Assembly (NCBI RefSeq): GCF_016758195.1
Contig: NZ_QYAC01000005.1
Location: 124,001-188,000, forward strand
Length of the DNA stretch: 64,000 nt
From: Leucobacter chromiireducens subsp. solipictus
GTDB lineage: Bacteria > Actinomycetota > Actinomycetes > Actinomycetales > Microbacteriaceae
Reading direction: 5' to 3'
Below, in pieces: positions 26,484 through 57,825 of this stretch; position 1 is the stretch's first letter; each line of letters opens with the position of its first letter. The position numbers and the translations under genes are program-made. The notes beneath the pieces are model-generated. The model had not been told where the DNA came from and did not search any database. It worked only from the letters and a program-made list of their open reading frames with translations.

Positions 26484-27293
26484 CTAGCGGGCGTCGCCCG
26501 CGGCGGAGGCTTTCTGGGAGAAGTACACGGGGATCAGGGACAGCAGGATCATCACCGTCGCGACCACGTTGACCTGGTTGACCTCGTTGGGGCGAGCCAT
26601 CTGGTTCATGATCCACAGCGGCAGGGTCTCGACCCCGGGTGGCGCCGTGAAGATCGTGACCACGATCTCATCGAAGGACAGCGCGAAGGCGAGCAGGCCG
26701 CCCGCAATGAAGGCGCTGCGGAACTGCGGGAACGTGACGAGCCGGAAGGTCTGCGCGATGCCGGCGCCGAGATCCATCGAGGCCTCTTCGAGGTTCGGAT
26801 TCATGCGACGCAACCGGGCGATCACGTTGTTGAACACCATCACGACGCAGAACGTCGCGTGGGCAATGATCATGCCCCAGTACCCGACATTGATCCCCAT
26901 CGGCTTCAGCACCTGGTGGAAGGTGTTCGAGAGCGCGACACCGGTGACGATGCCGGGGAGGGTAATCGGAAGCACGATCAGCAGGTTCACGGTCTGCTGC
27001 CCGAAGAACCGGAAGCGCTGCAGCGCGAAGGCCGCCAGCGTGCCGAGCAGGAGCGCGATCGCGGTCGCAATGAGGGCGACGACCACGGAGTTGAGCAGCG
27101 CGGCATGCACCGCCGGATTGGCGAGCGCCTTCTGCCACCACTCCAGCGAGAACCCCGGGATCGGCCAACCGGGCACGCGGCCCGCGTTGAAGGAGTTCAT
27201 GATGATCACGAACAGGGGGATGTACATGAACCCGAGGGCGACGAGGGTGACGAGGCCGAGCACGATCTTCGTGCCGCGAGTGAGGCGAAGCAT
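26484..27293 (-). CDS. Polyamine-type ABC importer permease (PotC/YdcV-like), system 1
   Basis: 269 residues with six membrane helices. The coupling-helix EAA motif reads LEEASMDLGAGIAQTFRLVTFPQ (about residues 165-188), which docks with the ATPase. FALSFDEIVVTIFTAPPGVETLPLWI is typical of PotC/YdcV. ATG 27293 has AAAGGAG. It is the last gene of the leftward order ATPase - binding protein - permease B - permease C, 26 bp after its partner permease. Confidence 0.9.
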   Translation of the reverse strand: MLRLTRGTKIVLGLVTLVALGFMYIPLFVIIMNSFNAGRVPGWPIPGFSLEWWQKALANPAVHAALLNSVVVALIATAIALLLGTLAAFALQRFRFFGQQTVNLLIVLPITLPGIVTGVALSNTFHQVLKPMGINVGYWGMIIAHATFCVVMVFNNVIARLRRMNPNLEEASMDLGAGIAQTFRLVTFPQFRSAFIAGGLLAFALSFDEIVVTIFTAPPGVETLPLWIMNQMARPNEVNQVNVVATVMILLSLIPVYFSQKASAAGDAR

Positions 27294-27319: not shown

Positions 27320-28204
27320 CTACAGATTGTTGAGCGCGCCGGTGCGGCGCACGGCGGTGAGATACAGCACCACGAGCACGATGGGCACCACCGAGAACGC
27401 GGCCGCCAGCGGCGGGTTCAGGTTGATGTTCTGGGCAATGATGCTGCCGATCATCTGCGTGGAGCCGCCGACGTACATCGCGGCGATGTAGTCACCGAGG
27501 CTGAGCGAGAACGTGAAGATCGATCCGGCGATCAGCGAGGGGAGGAGGAGCGGGGCCACGACGGTGCGGATCGTGCGGCCGCCACGCGCGCCCAAGTCCG
27601 AGGACGCATCGAAGAGATTCGCCGGGATCTGTGACACCGCCGCGTATACGGGGATCGCCATATAGGGGAACCAGAGGTACACGAGCGTGAGGATCACCGT
27701 CAGGATGCCGAAGCCGGGTCCCTCGATTCCGAGGGGCGAGAGCGCCCAATTGAAGAAGCCGGTTTCGGTCCAGACCAGGCGCATGGCGATGATCTTGACC
27801 AGGTACCCGGCCCAGAGCGGCAGCGTCACCAGGACGGCAAGCGTGGCGCGGAGCTTCGGACCCGCGACCTTCGCCATGAAGACGGCGAGCGGGATCGCCA
27901 CGGCCGCGCAGATCGCCGTCACCGCGAGTGCGATCCCGAGCGTGCGCAGCGCCGTGCCGAGATAGGCCGGGACGGTGAAGATCTGCTGGAAGTTCTCGAG
28001 CGTGAAGCCGGGCTTGACGCGTGAGGTAAACGGATCCGTCGTCCAGAACGCCGTGATCAGGAGGAGCGCGAGCGACAGGATGTACACGCCCACGAGCCAG
28101 GTCATCGGCAAAGCCAGAAGTGACGCGAGGCGCGCCCGTGGGTGCCGGGCGAGCGCGGTGGAGAGGGGAGTGGGGCGGCGGTCGAGTGCGGGCTGGTGAC
28201 TCAC
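27320..28204 (-). CDS. Polyamine-type ABC importer permease (PotB/YdcU-like), system 1
   Basis: 294 residues with six membrane helices and a longer cytoplasmic N terminus (about 30 residues). EAA motif LFDASSDLGARGGRTIRTVVAPLLLP (about 202-227) and TFSLSLGDYIAAMYVGGSTQMIGSII are typical of PotB/YdcU. GTG 28204 has GAGGAA upstream. It pairs with the permease at 26484-27293. A 158-bp gap with two hairpins separates it from the binding-protein gene. Confidence 0.9.
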   Translation of the reverse strand: MSHQPALDRRPTPLSTALARHPRARLASLLALPMTWLVGVYILSLALLLITAFWTTDPFTSRVKPGFTLENFQQIFTVPAYLGTALRTLGIALAVTAICAAVAIPLAVFMAKVAGPKLRATLAVLVTLPLWAGYLVKIIAMRLVWTETGFFNWALSPLGIEGPGFGILTVILTLVYLWFPYMAIPVYAAVSQIPANLFDASSDLGARGGRTIRTVVAPLLLPSLIAGSIFTFSLSLGDYIAAMYVGGSTQMIGSIIAQNINLNPPLAAAFSVVPIVLVVLYLTAVRRTGALNNL

Positions 28205-28362: not shown

Positions 28363-29541
28363 TTAGCCCTTGACCGTGGCCCAGGCCTTCGTCCAGTCCT
28401 GGTAGTTCGTGCACCGCACGTCGGTGCGGCCGTCGATGCACTGGTCGATCGGGGTGGTCCAGAACCACACCTGCGTGAAGTACTCCTCGTCGGTGGCGTT
28501 GAAGTAGTCGCAGTGCGCCTTCGCCTCGTCGCTGGTCTCGCAGAACGCGGCGTTCGCCGGGGCCATACCGAAGTTCATCGCGATCTGGCCGTTCACGTCG
28601 GGCGCGCTGGTGTAGTCCATCCAGGCGTAGGCGCAGTTCGGGTTCTTCGCCTCGGCGGCGAGCATCCACGCGTCCGACCAGCCGGTCGATCCCTCTTCGG
28701 GGAGCACGCTCTTGAACTTGTCGTCCTGGGTGGCCTTGCGCAGCACTTCCCAGGACGTGCCGACCACCGAGTTGCCGCCGGTGAAGGAGGTGACGTTGGT
28801 CGCGGGCGACCAGTACTCGGACACCATGCCGTTCTGCTGCTTCATGAGGTCGGTCGCGGCCTGAAGCTGAGCCTCGTCGAGCGCGTAGGGGTTCGTGATC
28901 CCGAGATCCGGCTCGTGCTCCATGAGGTAGATCGCGGCGTCCGCGAGATAGATGGGGCTATCGTAGGCGGCGATCTTGCCCGCGTAGGGGCTGTCCTTCT
29001 CCCACACAACGTCCCAGCTCGTGGGCTCTTCGGTCACGACCGTGGAATCGTACTGCAGGATGTTCGCGCCGCGGCCGATCGGGATCCCGTACACGTTGCC
29101 GTTCAGGGTGTCGTACATCTGGCCCTTCATGCCCGGGACGATATCGTCGCCGAAGTTCGGGATGAGCTCGGTGTTGATGGGCTGCACGTTGCCGTCGACG
29201 ATGAGCCGGAGGCTCGCGTCACCGGACGCGGAGACCAGATCGTACTCGCCGGTGCGCATCAGCTGCACCATCTCGTCGCTGGTCGCGGCGACCTTGCGGT
29301 TCACGGTGCATCCTGTGGCGTCCTCGAACGGCTTGGCCCAGGCGTCCTCGACGAAGCCGGACCAGGCCACAATGTTGACCTCCTGCTCCGTGTCGCCGAG
29401 CCCCTCCATGGTGGGGATATCGGGGACGTCGATCGAGATTTCGCCCGGGGCGGCATCGCCGCCGCTCGACGAGGCGCAGCCGGAGAGCGCGAGGCCCGCC
29501 GCGGCGATCAACGCCGCGGGGATGAGCAGTTGTTTCTTCAT
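28363..29541 (-). CDS. Polyamine-type ABC importer binding lipoprotein (PotD/YdcS-like), system 1
   Basis: 392 residues. Lipoprotein signal peptide with lipobox LSGC (C22). The mature part is a type II periplasmic-binding fold: VNIVAWSGFVEDAWAKPFEDATGCTVNRKV, YDLVSASGDASLRLIVDGNVQPINTELIPNF, and YGIPIGRGANILQYDSTVV resemble YdcS/PotD-type spermidine/putrescine-binding proteins. Several cysteines in the C-terminal part (DQCIDGRTDVRCTN) could form a disulfide outside the cell. ATG 29541 follows CAAGGAG. The ligand is inferred only from family and context. Confidence 0.88.
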   Translation of the reverse strand: MKKQLLIPAALIAAAGLALSGCASSSGGDAAPGEISIDVPDIPTMEGLGDTEQEVNIVAWSGFVEDAWAKPFEDATGCTVNRKVAATSDEMVQLMRTGEYDLVSASGDASLRLIVDGNVQPINTELIPNFGDDIVPGMKGQMYDTLNGNVYGIPIGRGANILQYDSTVVTEEPTSWDVVWEKDSPYAGKIAAYDSPIYLADAAIYLMEHEPDLGITNPYALDEAQLQAATDLMKQQNGMVSEYWSPATNVTSFTGGNSVVGTSWEVLRKATQDDKFKSVLPEEGSTGWSDAWMLAAEAKNPNCAYAWMDYTSAPDVNGQIAMNFGMAPANAAFCETSDEAKAHCDYFNATDEEYFTQVWFWTTPIDQCIDGRTDVRCTNYQDWTKAWATVKG

Positions 29542-29551
29542 TGGAACTCCT

Positions 29552-29587
29552 TGGGTGGATGGGGTGGATGGGGTGGATGTGGCGGAT
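29552..29587. repeat. 9-bp tandem repeat (GGGGTGGAT) before binding-protein gene
   Basis: Two exact and two imperfect copies of GGGGTGGAT lie in the gap between the ATPase and binding-protein genes, starting 11 bp upstream of the binding-protein ATG. Copy-number change would alter leader length but not the ribosome-binding site to start spacing. Confidence 0.6.
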
Positions 29588-29630
29588 GAGAACGGTGGGG
29601 CGGGAGAGCGGAGCCGCTGGCCCCGCGGGA

Positions 29631-30716
29631 TCAGGCCGCGGTGCGAGTTGCGGCCTGCGCGGCTTCGGGCACGGCGACCGCGTGATCCCGTGCGAAGCGA
29701 ACGCTCACGGCGTCGCCGCGCGAGATCGTGGGCGCTGCGTGTGGCGTGCCCGAATTCTGCTGCTCGGCGATGAACCGGAACCCGCCGGCCGTCTCGACGA
29801 GGGTGCGCGTGTGTGCGCCGGCGTAGACGGTCTCGACGACGGTGCCGGGAAGCGCGATCTCGCCGCTCGCGACGGGCGCGCTCGGATCCTGCAGTACGAC
29901 GCGTTCGGGGCGCACGCTGTGGGGCGCGGCCGTGCCCAGCACCCGCTGGGCGTCGGCGCCGGCGAGGAAGTTCGTGACGCCGAGGAAGCGCGCCACGAAC
30001 TCGGTCTGCGGGAACTCGTACACCTCGCGGGGGCTGCCGACCTGCTCGATCTTGCCGCCGTTGAACACCGCGACGCGGTCGGAGAGCGTCAGGGCCTCTT
30101 CCTGATCGTGGGTCACGAACACGAAGGTGATCCCCACCTCGCGCTGGATCTGCTTGAGCTCGAACTGCATCTGCTCGCGGAGCTGCTTGTCAAGGGCGCC
30201 GAGCGGCTCGTCGAGGAGGAGCACCTGGGGGCGCAGGATCAGGGCGCGAGCGAGGGCGATCCGCTGGCGCTGCCCGCCGGAGAGCTGCGACGGCCGGCGC
30301 TGCGCCAGGTGGCTGAGCTGTACCTGTTCGAGGGACTCCCCGACCCGGGCCGCGCGCTCCGTCTTGCTGATCCCGCGCACCTTGAGCCCTTAGGCCACGT
30401 TCTCCGCGATGGTGAGGTGCGGGAAGAGCGCGTAGTCCTGGAACACGGTGTTGACCGCGCGATCGAACGGGGCCGACTTCGTGACGTCCGTGCCGTGGAG
30501 CAGGATCCGACCGGCGGTGGGCTCTTCGAAGCCGGCGATCATGCGCAGCACGGTGGTTTTGCCGGAGCCCGACGGGCCCAGCATCGAGAAGAACTCGCCC
30601 GCGCGGATGTCGATGTCGAGCTCGTTGACGGCCACGAGGTCGCCGAACTGCTTGCGCACGCCCTGGACCGAGACGGCGATCTCTGCCTCGGTGGCGTGGG
30701 GGGTGGGGTGGGGCAT
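29631..30716 (-). pseudogene. Polyamine-type ABC importer ATPase (PotA-like), system 1, interrupted by in-frame TAA
   Basis: Read from ATG 30716 this would be a 361-codon PotA-type ATPase, but codon 109 (30390-30392) is TAA. Everything on both sides is intact and in the same frame: Walker A GPSGSGKT (47-54), Q-loop Q93, then after the stop signature LSGGQ (145-149), Walker B VLLLDEP (D169, E170), the His loop VTHDQEE and a C-terminal TOBE domain. The stop falls in the block ENVA-stop-GLKVRG; the two other ATPases in the window have Tyr (131) or Phe (105) there, so one base change TAC/TAT to TAA explains it. A GTG at 30380 lies behind TAAGGG and could restart translation of the C-terminal part. 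Either a nonsense mutation, a sequencing error, or a split ATPase. Confidence 0.85.
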
Positions 30717-30925
30717 GGTGCGCTGCTCCTCAACGTCGTTGTCGAACCAATGTGATGAACCATAACATATGGGTTTATAGGATTTTAACGATGTGCGTGT
30801 GCCAAGATCACGATTCGATGACGGAGCGGCACAGCAAATCTCCACGCCGGCCGTGACAGACTCAAGTGGGATCCGGCTCAGTTCGATCCGACTCGACGCA
30901 CATCGGCCGCGAACGGAGGGAACGC
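30717..30925. promoter_or_regulatory. A+T-rich divergent promoter region, potA-type / gntR
   Basis: The segment 30751-30792 (AACCATAACATATGGGTT, then TATAGGATTTTAACG) is far richer in A+T than its surroundings and contains an imperfect inverted repeat AACC-ATA / TAT-GGGTT at about 30761-30778. It probably holds back-to-back promoters and the operator of the adjacent GntR protein. Confidence 0.45.
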
Positions 30926-31732
30926 ATGAGCGAAACCGCGCTGCTGTCGCCGCCGAGCCGCCTGCGCGTCGCCGCGTTCTCCCCGATCGGCGAGGAAGGG
31001 CGCACCGAGCTCGTCGAGTCCCGGATCGTCCAGGCGATCTCGGTGGGCGCGTTCACCGAGGGGGAGCGACTGCCGAGCGAAACGGAACTCTCGGCGCTCC
31101 TCGGCGTCGCCGTCGTCACGGTGCGCGAGGCGCTGGGCACGCTCCGGCACCGCGGCCTGATCGAAACGCGGCGCGGTCGGAACGGCGGCAGCTTCGTGCG
31201 CCCGAGCCACGGCGCGGTCGAGGAAGTGAACGCGCGCGCCCTGATGGACCTCCCGCGCGTCTCGCTCGCCGATCTCGGCGTGCACTATGAGGTCGTGTCC
31301 GCGGCCTGCGCCGAATACGCGTGCCAGCGCGCCACGCCGGAGGAGCTTGAGATTGTCGCCGAGATTCTCGACGAGTCCCGCGGCCTGGAGCGGGCGCCGT
31401 GGCGGCGCCGCATCACCGAGGTGCAGCTGGAGCTCGCGGCGCTCAGCCAGTCAGTGCGGCTCACGAACGAGCACGTGCGCGTGCAAACCGAGTTCACCCC
31501 GTTCCTCGCGCTCCAGGACCTGGACCGGGAAGCCCGGCTCGGGACCCACGACGCGCTGGTCGCCCAGCTCGAGGCGACCCGCGCCGGCGACGTGTCCCGG
31601 GCGCGTGCGGCCGTGCGCGAGGGGGTTCGCGCCTCCGTGCGGTGGCTCGTCGCGTTTCGCGCCGAACTTCTCGCGGATCCCCGCCCGGAGCATCTTCGTG
31701 GCACACTGGAGGCTCGAAGCCGGGACGAGTGA
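30926..31732 (+). CDS. GntR-family (FadR-like) transcriptional regulator
   Basis: 268 residues; ATG 30926 follows GGAGGG. Residues about 28-95 are the winged helix ([58 protein letters not shown]). The C-terminal helical region (115-250) resembles an FCD ligand domain, but the usual three-histidine metal site is incomplete: only the THDALV histidine is evident. It is divergent from the system 1 importer and 33 bp upstream of a Cache-domain gene on the same strand, so it likely controls both. Confidence 0.87.
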
Positions 31733-31765
31733 TCCGGGCAGAGCCTCAGCGGAGAGGGGGACGAC

Positions 31766-32482
31766 ATGCCACAGCAGGCCGTACAGGATCGGAAGCTGGA
31801 CGCCGCGCTGGCGCGCATCGAGGAGTTCTTCGACGGCGTGTTCGCCCCGCTCGACGAGTGGCTTCCGCGGCTGCAGGCGCAGCTGACCGAGGCGATCGCT
31901 GACGGGCGCGTGACGGGCCCGCACCTTGCTGGCCTGGTGGAACGTGACGCCCACGCGATCCTCGACGGCAGCGAGCGGCCGCTCTACGGTGCCGGATATT
32001 GCGCCAGCGACGCGGTCGTGTCCGAAGGAAACCCCCTCGCATGGTGGCAGGGTCCGCACCGCAATCTTCTGGCCGCCTCGACCTTTGGCCCCGGCCAGGC
32101 CGCCATCGATCTCGTGCGACTCGAGTGGTACCGCGTGCCCGAAGCGACGGGCGTTCGGCACGTTGCGGGGCCCTTTGTGGATTACCTGTGCTCCAACGAA
32201 ATCACGCTGACCTCGGCGATCCCGGTGTTCCTGAACGGCACGTTCGCGGGCGTGGTCTGCGCCGACGTGCTCGTCTCCTCGTTGGAGGGGGCGCTGCAGG
32301 CCGAACTCGCCGGCGGCGCGACGCTCATTAACGCCAGTGGGCGCGTGGTCCTCTCCGCAGATCCCGACCGTGAGACCGGCGACCGGTGCATGGGGCCCGA
32401 ACCCGAGCGTGAACTTGACGCCCTGGTCGCCGCGGGCCGCGCGGTTCGCTCGACCCGCTACCCCTTCGCGCTCCTCGGCTGA
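31766..32482 (+). CDS. Soluble Cache (PDC-like) sensor-domain protein
   Basis: 238 residues with no signal peptide and no membrane helix. The N-terminal helix (about 8-50) leads into a Cache-type fold: VRLEWYRVPEATGVRHVAGPFVDYLCSNEITLTSAIPVF and LNGTFAGVVCADVLVSSLEG match the ligand-binding core of extracellular PDC sensors (WY...GP-DY...TSAIPV...G-VCADV). Such domains normally sit outside the membrane on chemoreceptors and kinases and bind amino acids or amines. Here it is free and cytoplasmic, with no output domain, directly behind a GntR gene. It may be a ligand-binding accessory protein for that regulator; this is inference. ATG 31766 has GGAGAGGGGGA upstream. It ends 7 bp from the convergent manC. 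Confidence 0.75.
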   Translation: MPQQAVQDRKLDAALARIEEFFDGVFAPLDEWLPRLQAQLTEAIADGRVTGPHLAGLVERDAHAILDGSERPLYGAGYCASDAVVSEGNPLAWWQGPHRNLLAASTFGPGQAAIDLVRLEWYRVPEATGVRHVAGPFVDYLCSNEITLTSAIPVFLNGTFAGVVCADVLVSSLEGALQAELAGGATLINASGRVVLSADPDRETGDRCMGPEPERELDALVAAGRAVRSTRYPFALLG

Positions 32483-48210: not shown

Positions 48211-48995
48211 TGACGTTCAAGCGTGTACTCGGCGTCTTCGCCGTGCTGATCGTGCTGTGGCTGATCCTGCCCACGCTCGTGATTGTCCCGATGTCATTCA
48301 ACGAGGCACCCTCGTTCAACTTCCCGCCCAAGGGCTTCTCGCTGCGCTGGTACGAGAACTTCTTCACGGACGCGACCTGGATGAAGGCGCTGTTCTCGTC
48401 GCTGCAGGTGGCCGTGTTGACGATGCTCGTCGCGACCGCCGTGGGCGTGCTCGCGGCCCTCGGCCTCTCGAAGGTGAAGTTTCGGGGCAAGGGGCTCCTG
48501 GAAGGCTACTTCCTGCTTCCGCTCATCGTCCCCGGCATCGTGCTCGCAGTGGGTCTGTACTCGCTGTTCCTGCGGATGAACCTGCTGGGCACCCTGCCCG
48601 GCTTCATCCTGGCGCACACGATCGTCGCCATGCCGCTCGTCATCACGAACGTGATGGCGTCGCTGCAGGGTTTGGACCCGCGGCTCGAACAGGCCTCCGC
48701 ATCGCTGGGCGCTGGCCGGGTCCGCACCTTCTTCAGCATCACCCTGCCGCTCATCGCGCCGGGCGTGACCGCGGGAGCCCTGTTCGCGTTTGTTACCTCG
48801 TTCGACGAGGTGATCCTGTCGCTGTTCATCCAGAGTCCTTCACTGCAGACCCTGCCGGTGAAGATCTTCAACAGCGTCACCCAGACCAATGACCCCACGG
48901 TGGCGGCCGTCGCGGTGATCACGATGCTGACCTCGGTCGTCGTGATGCTGATCGCCCAGTTCGCCACGCGGAAGAGAAAGCGACCGGTAGCGTGA
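48210..48995 (+). CDS. Polyamine-type ABC importer permease (PotC-like), system 2
   Basis: 261 residues, six helices, ATG overlapping the potB-type stop. EAA motif LEQASASLGAGRVRTFFSITLPLIAPG and FAFVTSFDEVILSLFIQSPSLQTLPVKI identify a PotC-type subunit. Its own stop overlaps the ATPase start (GTGA). Confidence 0.92.
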   Translation: MTFKRVLGVFAVLIVLWLILPTLVIVPMSFNEAPSFNFPPKGFSLRWYENFFTDATWMKALFSSLQVAVLTMLVATAVGVLAALGLSKVKFRGKGLLEGYFLLPLIVPGIVLAVGLYSLFLRMNLLGTLPGFILAHTIVAMPLVITNVMASLQGLDPRLEQASASLGAGRVRTFFSITLPLIAPGVTAGALFAFVTSFDEVILSLFIQSPSLQTLPVKIFNSVTQTNDPTVAAVAVITMLTSVVVMLIAQFATRKRKRPVA

Positions 48996-50182
48996 ACGCT
49001 ATGACTCACAACGACATCCCCGTGCCCGCCGGGCACGAGCAGGAGCTGCGCTCTGAGGGCCTGAACACGCAGGCGATCCACGCGATCGGCGACGCGGGCA
49101 TCAGCCTGAATCAGGTCACGAAGCGCTACGGCGACAAAGCCGTGGTTGACGAGATCGACCTGGTGATCGAACCGGGCGAGTTCATGACCTTCCTCGGCCC
49201 TTCGGGCTCGGGGAAGACCACGACGCTCAACATGATCGCTGGCTTCACCTCGGTCACCGAGGGCATGCTGCACATCTACGGCAAGCCCGTGGCGAAGCTG
49301 CCGCCGCACAAGCGCGACATCGGCATGGTGTTCCAGAACTATGCGCTGTTCCCGCACAAGACGGTCGCGGAGAACATCGCCTACCCGCTGCAGCGCCGCA
49401 AGCTCAGCAAGGCGGAGCAGCAGCAGAAGGTTGCCACCGCGCTCGAGATGGTGCGGATGGGCGAGTACGGCGATCGCTTCCCGTCGGAGCTCTCGGGCGG
49501 CCAGCAGCAGCGCGTCGCCCTCGCCCGGGCGCTCGTCTACGAGCCCCGCGTGCTGCTCATGGACGAGCCGCTGGGCGCGCTCGACAAGAAGCTGCGCGAG
49601 TGGCTGCAGACCGAGATCAAGCGGATCCACCGCGAGGTCGGCTCGACGTTCGTGTACGTCACGCACGATCAGGAAGAAGCGCTGTCGATGTCGGACCGCA
49701 TCGCGGTCTTCAACAACGGGCGCATCGAGCAGGTCGGCACGGCGGAGGACCTCTACGAGGCACCGCAGACCCTGTTCGTGGGCCGCTTCCTCGGGGAGTC
49801 CACCGTGCTGCTCGGAAAGGGCACGACCGACGGCGACCGCCGCACCGCGATCGATGTGGCCGGGCACCGCGTGGTGGCCGATGGCCTGAGTAGCCACGAG
49901 GATCTCGCGATCCTGATCCGGCCAGAGAACCTGCGTCTCGAGCCCGCTGGCACCGCGCCGTCCGAGTCGCAGAACGCGATCCCGGTCACGATCCTGGACG
50001 TCACCTACCTGGGGGCCTCCCGCCGCTACACCGTGCGCCTGCCGGACGGCAGCGAGGGCGCCGTGCGCCTGGGCCAGGAAGCGCGCATCCACAATCGGGG
50101 CGACGAGGTCGCGATGATGTGGGACATCGCATCGGGCGTGCTGCTCGTGGACACCGGCGAGGCCGGGGAGTCCGCAACGTAA
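48992..50182 (+). CDS. Polyamine-type ABC importer ATPase (PotA-like), system 2
   Basis: 396 residues. An unusual acidic N-terminal extension of about 36 residues precedes the ATPase: Walker [11 protein letters not shown] (K75), Q-loop FQNYALFPH, Tyr131 in ENIAYPL, signature LSGGQ (167-171), Walker B LLMDEP (D191, E192), VTHDQEE, and a C-terminal TOBE domain (RPENLRLEP...VTYLGASRRYTVRL). It powers import through the two permeases. Because the system 1 ATPase is interrupted, this one could also serve that importer. Confidence 0.95.
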   Translation: MNAMTHNDIPVPAGHEQELRSEGLNTQAIHAIGDAGISLNQVTKRYGDKAVVDEIDLVIEPGEFMTFLGPSGSGKTTTLNMIAGFTSVTEGMLHIYGKPVAKLPPHKRDIGMVFQNYALFPHKTVAENIAYPLQRRKLSKAEQQQKVATALEMVRMGEYGDRFPSELSGGQQQRVALARALVYEPRVLLMDEPLGALDKKLREWLQTEIKRIHREVGSTFVYVTHDQEEALSMSDRIAVFNNGRIEQVGTAEDLYEAPQTLFVGRFLGESTVLLGKGTTDGDRRTAIDVAGHRVVADGLSSHEDLAILIRPENLRLEPAGTAPSESQNAIPVTILDVTYLGASRRYTVRLPDGSEGAVRLGQEARIHNRGDEVAMMWDIASGVLLVDTGEAGESAT

Positions 50183-56007: not shown

Positions 56008-56813
56008 TGCTGAAAACACATCCCGTGACCAAAGCAATCCTGTGGGTGGTGGCAGGCCTCGTCGCGATCTGGTTGGTCGCACCGAGCCTGATCGTGATCC
56101 CCCTCAGCTTCACGGACAAGGCATCCCTCGTGTTCCCGCCGACCGGCTGGTCGACGCGCTGGTATGAGTCGTTCTTTACGAATCCGGAGTGGACCCGGGC
56201 TCTGGGGAACTCCCTGCTGATCGGTCTGCTCGTGGCCGCGCTGGCGACGCTCCTGGGGCTTCTGGCCGCTCTCGGTCTGCGACGTATGGCGAACAAGAAG
56301 ATCATCGCCGGGCTCACGTTCGGCCTACTGGCACCGATGGTTGTCCCCGGCATCGTGGTCGCCATCGGCCTGTACGCCGTGTTCCTGAAGGCCGGCCTGG
56401 TGGGCACACTCCTCGGATTCGTGCTCGCTCACACGGTGCTCGCCTTGCCATTCACGGTCGTCGCCATCACCGCTGGCTTTGCTGGGTTCGACTCTCGCCT
56501 GGAGCAGGCCGCAATGAGCCTGGGGGCGAACCGGTTCACGACGTTCATGCGTGTGACACTGCCCAATATCGTTCCCGGGATGATTTCCGGTGCGCTGTTC
56601 GCCTTTGTGACCTCCTTCGACGAGGTCATGCTCTCCCTCTTCATTAAGAGCCCCTACCTGAATACGCTGCCGGTGCTGATGTACTCCAGCGTCACCCGCG
56701 ACACGGACCCCACGCTCGCCGCTGCGGCCACCGTGATCCTCCTCATTACGACGGTCATCGTCGTTCTGGGACTGACCCTCTCCGGAAGGAAAACTCGTGC
56801 CCGAGCAAAGTAA
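56007..56813 (+). CDS. Polyamine-type ABC importer permease (PotC-like), system 3
   Basis: 268 residues, six helices. EAA motif LEQAAMSLGANRFTTFMRVTLPNIVPG and FAFVTSFDEVMLSLFIKSPYLNTLPVLM. Very similar to the system 2 partner. Its 3' end overlaps the ATPase gene by 17 bp. Confidence 0.92.
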   Translation: MLKTHPVTKAILWVVAGLVAIWLVAPSLIVIPLSFTDKASLVFPPTGWSTRWYESFFTNPEWTRALGNSLLIGLLVAALATLLGLLAALGLRRMANKKIIAGLTFGLLAPMVVPGIVVAIGLYAVFLKAGLVGTLLGFVLAHTVLALPFTVVAITAGFAGFDSRLEQAAMSLGANRFTTFMRVTLPNIVPGMISGALFAFVTSFDEVMLSLFIKSPYLNTLPVLMYSSVTRDTDPTLAAAATVILLITTVIVVLGLTLSGRKTRARAK

Positions 56814-57825
56814 CCGGGGCGCAGAGATTCGCCTCGACGGCGTATCCAAGCACTACCCGAAGTCGATCGCGCTGGACAACGTCTCACTGACGGTAGAGCC
56901 TGGCGAGTTCATGACATTTCTCGGACCGTCAGGTTCCGGGAAAACGACCACGCTGAACCTCATCGCGGGCTTCACCGACCTCACCACCGGTAGCGTACGC
57001 ATTGACGGTCGACAGATGGATGACGTACCCGTGCACAAGCGCGATCTCGGCATCGTCTTCCAGCACTACGCACTGTTCCCGCACATGAGCGTGTTCGACA
57101 ACGTCGCGTTCCCGCTGGCGCGGCGCAAGGTGTCGAAAGCTGAGACGGTGCAGCTTGTGCACGCGGCCCTCGAAACCGCTGGTCTGGCGGGCTTCTCCGA
57201 GCGCTACCCGGCGGAGCTCTCGGGTGGACAGCAGCAACGGGTTGCGCTCGCCCGCGCGCTCGTGTTCCAGCCCAAAGTTCTGCTGCTCGACGAGCCGCTG
57301 GGCGCCCTCGACAAGAACCTGCGCGAGAAGCTCCAGCTCGAGCTGCGCCGCATCCATCGTGACGTAGGGCGGACCTTTGTGTTTGTCACTCACGATCAGG
57401 AAGAGGCGCTGACGCTCTCCGACCGCATCGCCGTCTTCAACAACGGCCGGATCGAGCAGGTCGGTACCGCAAAGGAACTCTACGAGCGCCCCGCCTCTGC
57501 CTTCGTGGCAGGGTTCATCGGTGAATCCACGATGGTTCCTGATGCCTCGGCGGGCACTGTCACCGTGGTGCGCCCTGAGCACGGGGAGCTCTTCCCCGCG
57601 GAAGCCGCGCTCCCCACGGGGATGCAGGGCGCGCCGGTCACCGTGCGCCAGTCCGTATACCTCGGTGCGGGGTGGAAACACGAGATCGTGCTCGATCTTC
57701 CGGGTCAGGCTGAGCCCGTCGCCGGTGTCATTCGCGGCGCGGAACAGCTGGACTGGCTCGCCGGCTCCAACACCCCGGCCCAACTGGCATGGCACCCCGG
57801 CCGCGTGGCCGTGCTGCACGCATAA
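56797..57825 (+). CDS. Polyamine-type ABC importer ATPase (PotA-like), system 3
   Basis: 342 residues from GTG 56797 with TCCGGAAGGA upstream, inside the permease gene. Walker [11 protein letters not shown] (K49), FQHYALFPH, Phe105 in DNVAFPL, signature LSGGQ, Walker B LLLDEP, VTHDQEE, then a shorter TOBE region (VVRPEHGELFP...VYLGAGWKHEIVLDL). Complete and apparently functional; it completes importer system 3. Confidence 0.95.
   Translation: MPEQSNRGAEIRLDGVSKHYPKSIALDNVSLTVEPGEFMTFLGPSGSGKTTTLNLIAGFTDLTTGSVRIDGRQMDDVPVHKRDLGIVFQHYALFPHMSVFDNVAFPLARRKVSKAETVQLVHAALETAGLAGFSERYPAELSGGQQQRVALARALVFQPKVLLLDEPLGALDKNLREKLQLELRRIHRDVGRTFVFVTHDQEEALTLSDRIAVFNNGRIEQVGTAKELYERPASAFVAGFIGESTMVPDASAGTVTVVRPEHGELFPAEAALPTGMQGAPVTVRQSVYLGAGWKHEIVLDLPGQAEPVAGVIRGAEQLDWLAGSNTPAQLAWHPGRVAVLHA

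Follow-up and report, generated by a model that had tools for sequence, protein, structure and literature searches.

The window analysed here comprises 64,000 nucleotides of the genome of Leucobacter chromiireducens subsp. solipictus and holds three PotABCD-like importers of the polyamine type, importer 1 and two more. In importer 1 the gene for the PotA-type ATPase heads the row and is followed by the genes for the binding protein and for the PotB-like and PotC-like permeases; a GntR/FCD regulator gene and a Cache-like gene are oriented divergently (Table 1). The importer row presumably is one transcript. On a larger scale, positions 20808-62664 carry, together with the three importers, two flavin amine oxidases, a DAO-type oxidoreductase, two amino-acid permeases, two amidohydrolases and a PucR-type regulator, and look like a region of amine catabolism.

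The ATPase gene of importer 1 consists of 362 codons, and its translation shows stops at codon 109 and at the end only. The initial annotation had described a TAA at codon 109 with both flanks in one frame and with all nucleotide-binding motifs preserved. Translation bears this out: the peptide TIAENVA precedes the TAA, the reading frame is unchanged after it, and the sequence includes what we take to be Walker A (GPSGSGKTT), the Q-loop, the signature (LSGGQ), Walker B (VLLLDEP) and the H-loop (THD). Walker A, signature, Walker B and H-loop of the ABC_tran domain are all kept, but they lie on either side of the stop, which cuts PF00005 into positions 2-79 in the N-terminal and 80-136 in the C-terminal piece. 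Therefore, neither piece is a complete ATPase domain. A TOBE_2 domain (PF08402, 55.5 bits) is found in the C-terminal piece. The top NCBIfam models of both pieces are those of PotA-type ATPases of spermidine/putrescine ABC importers (NF006987 with 131.4 bits for the N-terminal, TIGR01187 with 239.7 bits for the C-terminal piece), and the PotA structures 8y5f and 8zx1 align with both, being the top solved relatives of the C-terminal piece and among the top ones for the N-terminal piece. In contrast to these ATPases the gene is broken at codon 109, and each piece scores under the curated whole-protein cut-offs. The gene does not translate into one uninterrupted polypeptide and, as in young pseudogenes, its in-frame stop truncates a conserved domain.

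Table 1. Features of importer 1, its neighbours and the parallel ATPase genes (positions within the window)
Feature	Position	Strand	Basis
PotA-type ABC importer ATPase gene, importer 1, with in-frame TAA	29631..30716	-	translation, NCBIfam, split ABC_tran, TOBE_2
N-terminal piece, 108 codons, Walker A and Q-loop	30393..30716	-	PF00005 positions 2-79
In-frame TAA, codon 109	30390..30392	-	sequence, translation, orthologue comparison
GGGCTCAAG then GTG (codon 113), proposed restart; with the TAA makes TAAGGG	30378..30389	-	sequence, duplex energy, 16S-tail match
C-terminal piece, 252 codons, signature, Walker B, H-loop, TOBE_2	29634..30389	-	domain search from GTG (249 aa)
Substrate-binding lipoprotein, importer 1, YdcS/PotD-like	28363..29541	-	NF041888 YdcS 289.9 bits, under cut-off 725; domain search
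Permease 1, PotB-like	27320..28204	-	NCBIfam, domain search
Permease 2, PotC-like	26484..27293	-	NCBIfam, domain search
GntR/FCD regulator, divergent, conserved neighbour	30866..31732	+	tblastn placement, domain search
Cache-type sensor domain protein, conserved neighbour	31766..32482	+	weak dCache_1 match below cut-off; tblastn placement
Intact PotA-type ATPase, importer 2	48992..50182	+	NCBIfam, domain search, alignment
Intact PotA-type ATPase, importer 3	56797..57825	+	NCBIfam, domain search, alignment

Codon 109 and importer 1 in related genomes

A DNA search was carried out over 54 genomes of the genus, the own genome included, and 44 orthologues from the 53 relatives were placed by tblastn of the two pieces and the neighbouring genes. 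The comparison with close relatives, which had been proposed along with the initial annotation, gave a uniform picture: all 44 orthologues examined are intact with tyrosine at codon 109, and none has a stop at this site. The frame closes at its regular stop in 43 of them, the remaining one being cut by a contig end. Such intact orthologues in relatives are a second trait of young pseudogenes. Among 80 more distant loci taken from named records the site is occupied by phenylalanine in 58, tyrosine in 18 and leucine in one, and could not be placed in three. The two paralogues in the window have, as had been noted before, tyrosine (ENIAY, importer 2) and phenylalanine (DNVAF, importer 3) at the matching site. 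An aromatic residue is thus near-universal here. The TAA exceeds chance variation at a loose position, and it is found in the own genome only. No hidden second copy of the ATPase gene was found; the other places in the own genome among the matches listed reach 70-71% DNA identity over part of the gene.

As far as the contigs reach, the gene order is the same in all 44 orthologous loci. The binding-protein gene adjoins the ATPase gene in 43 of the 44 relatives; in locus L149 the contig ends first. On the other side, the GntR and Cache genes are present in 42; they were not found in loci L134 and L212, in both of which the end of the stretch or contig is close. This pairing of a GntR/FCD gene with a following Cache-like gene (30866-32482) beside importer 1 suggests a signal-sensing partner. 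Furthermore, a short series of direct repeats resembling CATCCACCC was recognized by eye at 29542-29590 on the minus strand, in the spacer that separates the ATPase gene from the ribosome-binding site of the gene for the binding protein.

A match to the binding protein at E<=1e-60 occurs in 44 of the 54 genomes, own included. Among the ten without such a match is G038, where a contig ends. The nine relatives for which no locus was fetched and which stand outside the orthologue count (G011, G012, G017, G019, G028, G045, G047, G048 and G051) have no binding-protein match at this threshold. When only well-complete genomes are considered (>=90% complete, <=5% contaminated), 38 of 45 have a match and seven have no close one. 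Judged from these matches, the importer-1 operon is missing from part of the genus, or strongly diverged there, and looks dispensable. Therefore, loss of the ATPase is probably tolerated.

Age of the stop codon

Compared with the nearest relative, G044, dN/dS is 0.034 before the stop and 0.046 after it. The binding protein and the two permeases have 0.027-0.036, the flanking regulators and sensor 0.060-0.108. The value of the C-terminal piece is slightly above those of the downstream genes. It exceeds the permeases in the other five relatives too (0.12-0.20 against 0.03-0.08) and therefore represents the usual rate of this part of the protein. The comparison of GntR with G021 (dN 2.8) was left out, as it resembles an alignment slip from a gapped match. 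The remaining genes of the operon are open and under purifying selection. Polarised amino-acid changes on the own branch amount to none in 106 codons upstream of the stop and one in 240 codons downstream, counts which are low because unanimous outgroups were required. An old pseudogene is ruled out by dN/dS together with these polarised changes.

From a dS of 0.58, 538 nonsynonymous sites and half of the path assigned to each branch, approximately 150 nonsynonymous changes would be expected had the downstream part been free of selection over the whole own branch; by the same estimate the two branches combined carry about 14. On this calculation the stop would be younger than approximately one tenth of the own branch, counted from its separation from G044. 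No decay is seen downstream of the stop, which is hence very recent or a base error. The absence of decay fits a young null allele, a base error or a still-functional gene alike.

Nonsense mutation or sequence error

As judged from the sequence comparisons, we consider it probable that a recent nonsense mutation, found in this genome only, has knocked out the ATPase of an ABC importer of the YdcS/PotD (polyamine) type. An in-frame TAA with intact flanks, the tyrosine in 44 of 44 orthologues, the lack of decay, the lack of a suppressor anticodon (see below), a seemingly dispensable operon and the presence of two further importers together make a young nonsense mutation the likelier reading. The frame ends with residue 108, halfway through the nucleotide-binding domain, where the Q-loop has been passed and the signature motif is still to follow. 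This leaves a short fragment presumably unable to hydrolyse ATP. Release of ribosomes at the TAA may in addition, by polarity, reduce how strongly the binding protein and permeases encoded downstream are expressed. As a consequence of both, uptake by importer 1 would be abolished or greatly diminished, except if a different PotA-type ATPase in the cell works for it. The mutation would be too young for further lesions to have accumulated.

A one-base error in base calling or assembly, with the gene intact in the living strain, would look the same as a true mutation. We regard such an error as possible, though clearly less likely than the mutation. It would agree with a single lesion in a well-preserved gene that is absent from all 44 relatives examined, and with the draft state of the assembly (11 contigs). 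However, the assembly shows no sign of poor quality. It is 99.81% complete, and an inner stop was seen in only one of 138 ABC_tran matches of the own genome (150 of 191 candidates scored), which is the importer-1 ATPase itself, and in none of 71 BPD_transp_1 permease matches. For MFS_1, five of 73 matches were flagged for a stop. In the four examined it sits in the final 1-12% of the matched stretch, where the gene ends or close to that point; the fifth scores below the family cut-off. A generally poor assembly or a decaying genome is therefore unsupported. In modern assemblies, moreover, substitution errors are rarer than indels, which also speaks against an error. There is a precedent for such errors in Mycobacterium smegmatis, where resequencing of 73 interrupted genes traced 28 to sequencing errors, in a set from a 2007 genome consisting largely of frameshifts (PMC1852416). 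With interrupted coding sequences and young bacterial pseudogenes the importer-1 ATPase gene shares one in-frame stop, intact relatives and the lack of other decay; such cases go back to genuine mutations or to errors in the sequence (PMC1852416), and nothing distinguishes the gene from them. No publication on this ATPase gene was found among the matches listed, as far as title and beginning of the abstract tell.

Possible function of the interrupted gene

The initial annotation had named as alternatives that the system is dead or that it borrows the ATPase of importer 2 or 3, and as alternatives both find support. Borrowing, in which the gene is dead and importer 1 runs on the ATPase of importer 2 or 3 or on another PotA-type ATPase, is compatible at the gene level with a recent nonsense mutation; we rate it as improbable. 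To the C-terminal piece the two paralogues of the window show 47% and 54% identity (over 218 and 188 residues), to the N-terminal piece 52% and 38%. MsmX, described in PMC7658222 as a multitask ATPase serving several type I importers, and MsiK, a multitask ATPase in Streptomyces, show that one ATPase is able to drive several importers. However, both precedents concern sugar importers, and unlike there, the ATPase gene here stands beside the binding-protein gene in 43 of 44 relatives, the other one being cut by the contig end, which is not the pattern of a shared ATPase. Borrowing may thus be possible by precedent, but gene order gives no support to it.

Readthrough of the TAA, yielding enough full-length ATPase for transport, appears very unlikely. 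The low dN/dS of the downstream part, which appears constrained, would agree with it. However, TAA is the least leaky stop codon. Furthermore, ARAGORN found no anticodon TTA, CTA or TCA in the loci covering all 54 tRNA matches of the own genome, hence there is no tRNA reading UAA among those found, and reassignment or suppression of the stop was rejected. The tRNA-Leu with anticodon taa reads UUA, not UAA. A survey makes the case that readthrough occurs at many in-frame stops of bacteria where dN/dS is low (PMC7918605), but any very young stop gives a low dN/dS, and the survey itself calls many such events short-lived. Two side observations concern the tRNA genes themselves. A trio for Gly, Cys and Val occurs twice in tandem (locus L164, 1501-2513), and the tRNA-Leu just mentioned (locus L198, 113-187) has just 75 bases and is without the long variable arm that tRNA-Leu usually has.

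The initial annotation had further proposed a built-in restart, with TAAGGG as a fair ribosome-binding site six bases before GTG 30380. Ribosomes would terminate at the TAA and reinitiate at this GTG, and two coupled products would form a working split ATPase, that is, a newborn gene fission within one nucleotide-binding domain. The coordinates and the spacing are correct, and the site is indeed fair, but it is unremarkable. The presumed 16S tail of the own genome ends CCTCCTTTCT and reads GGATCACCTCCTTTCT, therefore of TAAGGG only the four bases AAGG pair. At a usable spacing such a match is also present at 14-15 of 23 gene starts, but equally at 66-78 of the 538 start-like codons that lie in frame inside genes; which genes and starts to list was our own choice, and some entries are uncertain. 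A five-base match, which is lacking at GTG 30380, occurs at 10-11 of the 23 starts and 16-18 of the 538 internal codons. The duplex energy of -5.7 is better than the median over the 45 orthologous sites (-2.5), but it is equalled or beaten at 171 of the 538 internal codons and at 15 of 18 gene starts, and at least seven relatives without the stop score -5.7 as well. By energy and by the four-base match, the site is thus not stronger than expected by chance. Gly110 and Val113 are invariant in all 45 sequences, codon 113 being GTG in 25 of them, and AAGG arises with any TAA placed before the invariant glycine. The site is built from invariant Tyr, Gly and Val codons, and this calls for caution against taking TAA plus Shine-Dalgarno sequence plus GTG as design.

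Reinitiation is considered a frequent event in prokaryotes (PMC5972666). Nevertheless, a two-piece ATPase is the least plausible of all readings and remained unsupported: the arrangement is seen in one genome of the 45 compared and kept in none of the 44 relatives, the GTG encodes an invariant valine, and both pieces are fragments of the single domain PF00005. No split nucleotide-binding domain of this kind was found among the literature matches listed, by title and start of the abstract. A restart product, if made, would be without Walker A and Q-loop, and its likeliest effect would be less polarity on the downstream genes. The interruption is a real sequence feature with an ordinary cause, most likely a recent gene-breaking mutation or a sequencing slip, and not a new two-piece motor.

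The cell should be able to tolerate the loss of one importer. In Streptococcus agalactiae, deletion of potABCD gave no phenotype that the authors of the study could assign (PMC8744998). Beyond the annotation the finding means little, as it adds one more case of a fresh nonsense codon, or of a base error, in an importer operon that is dispensable. If the stop is real, the strain is a natural mutant for telling apart the roles of three parallel polyamine-type importers.
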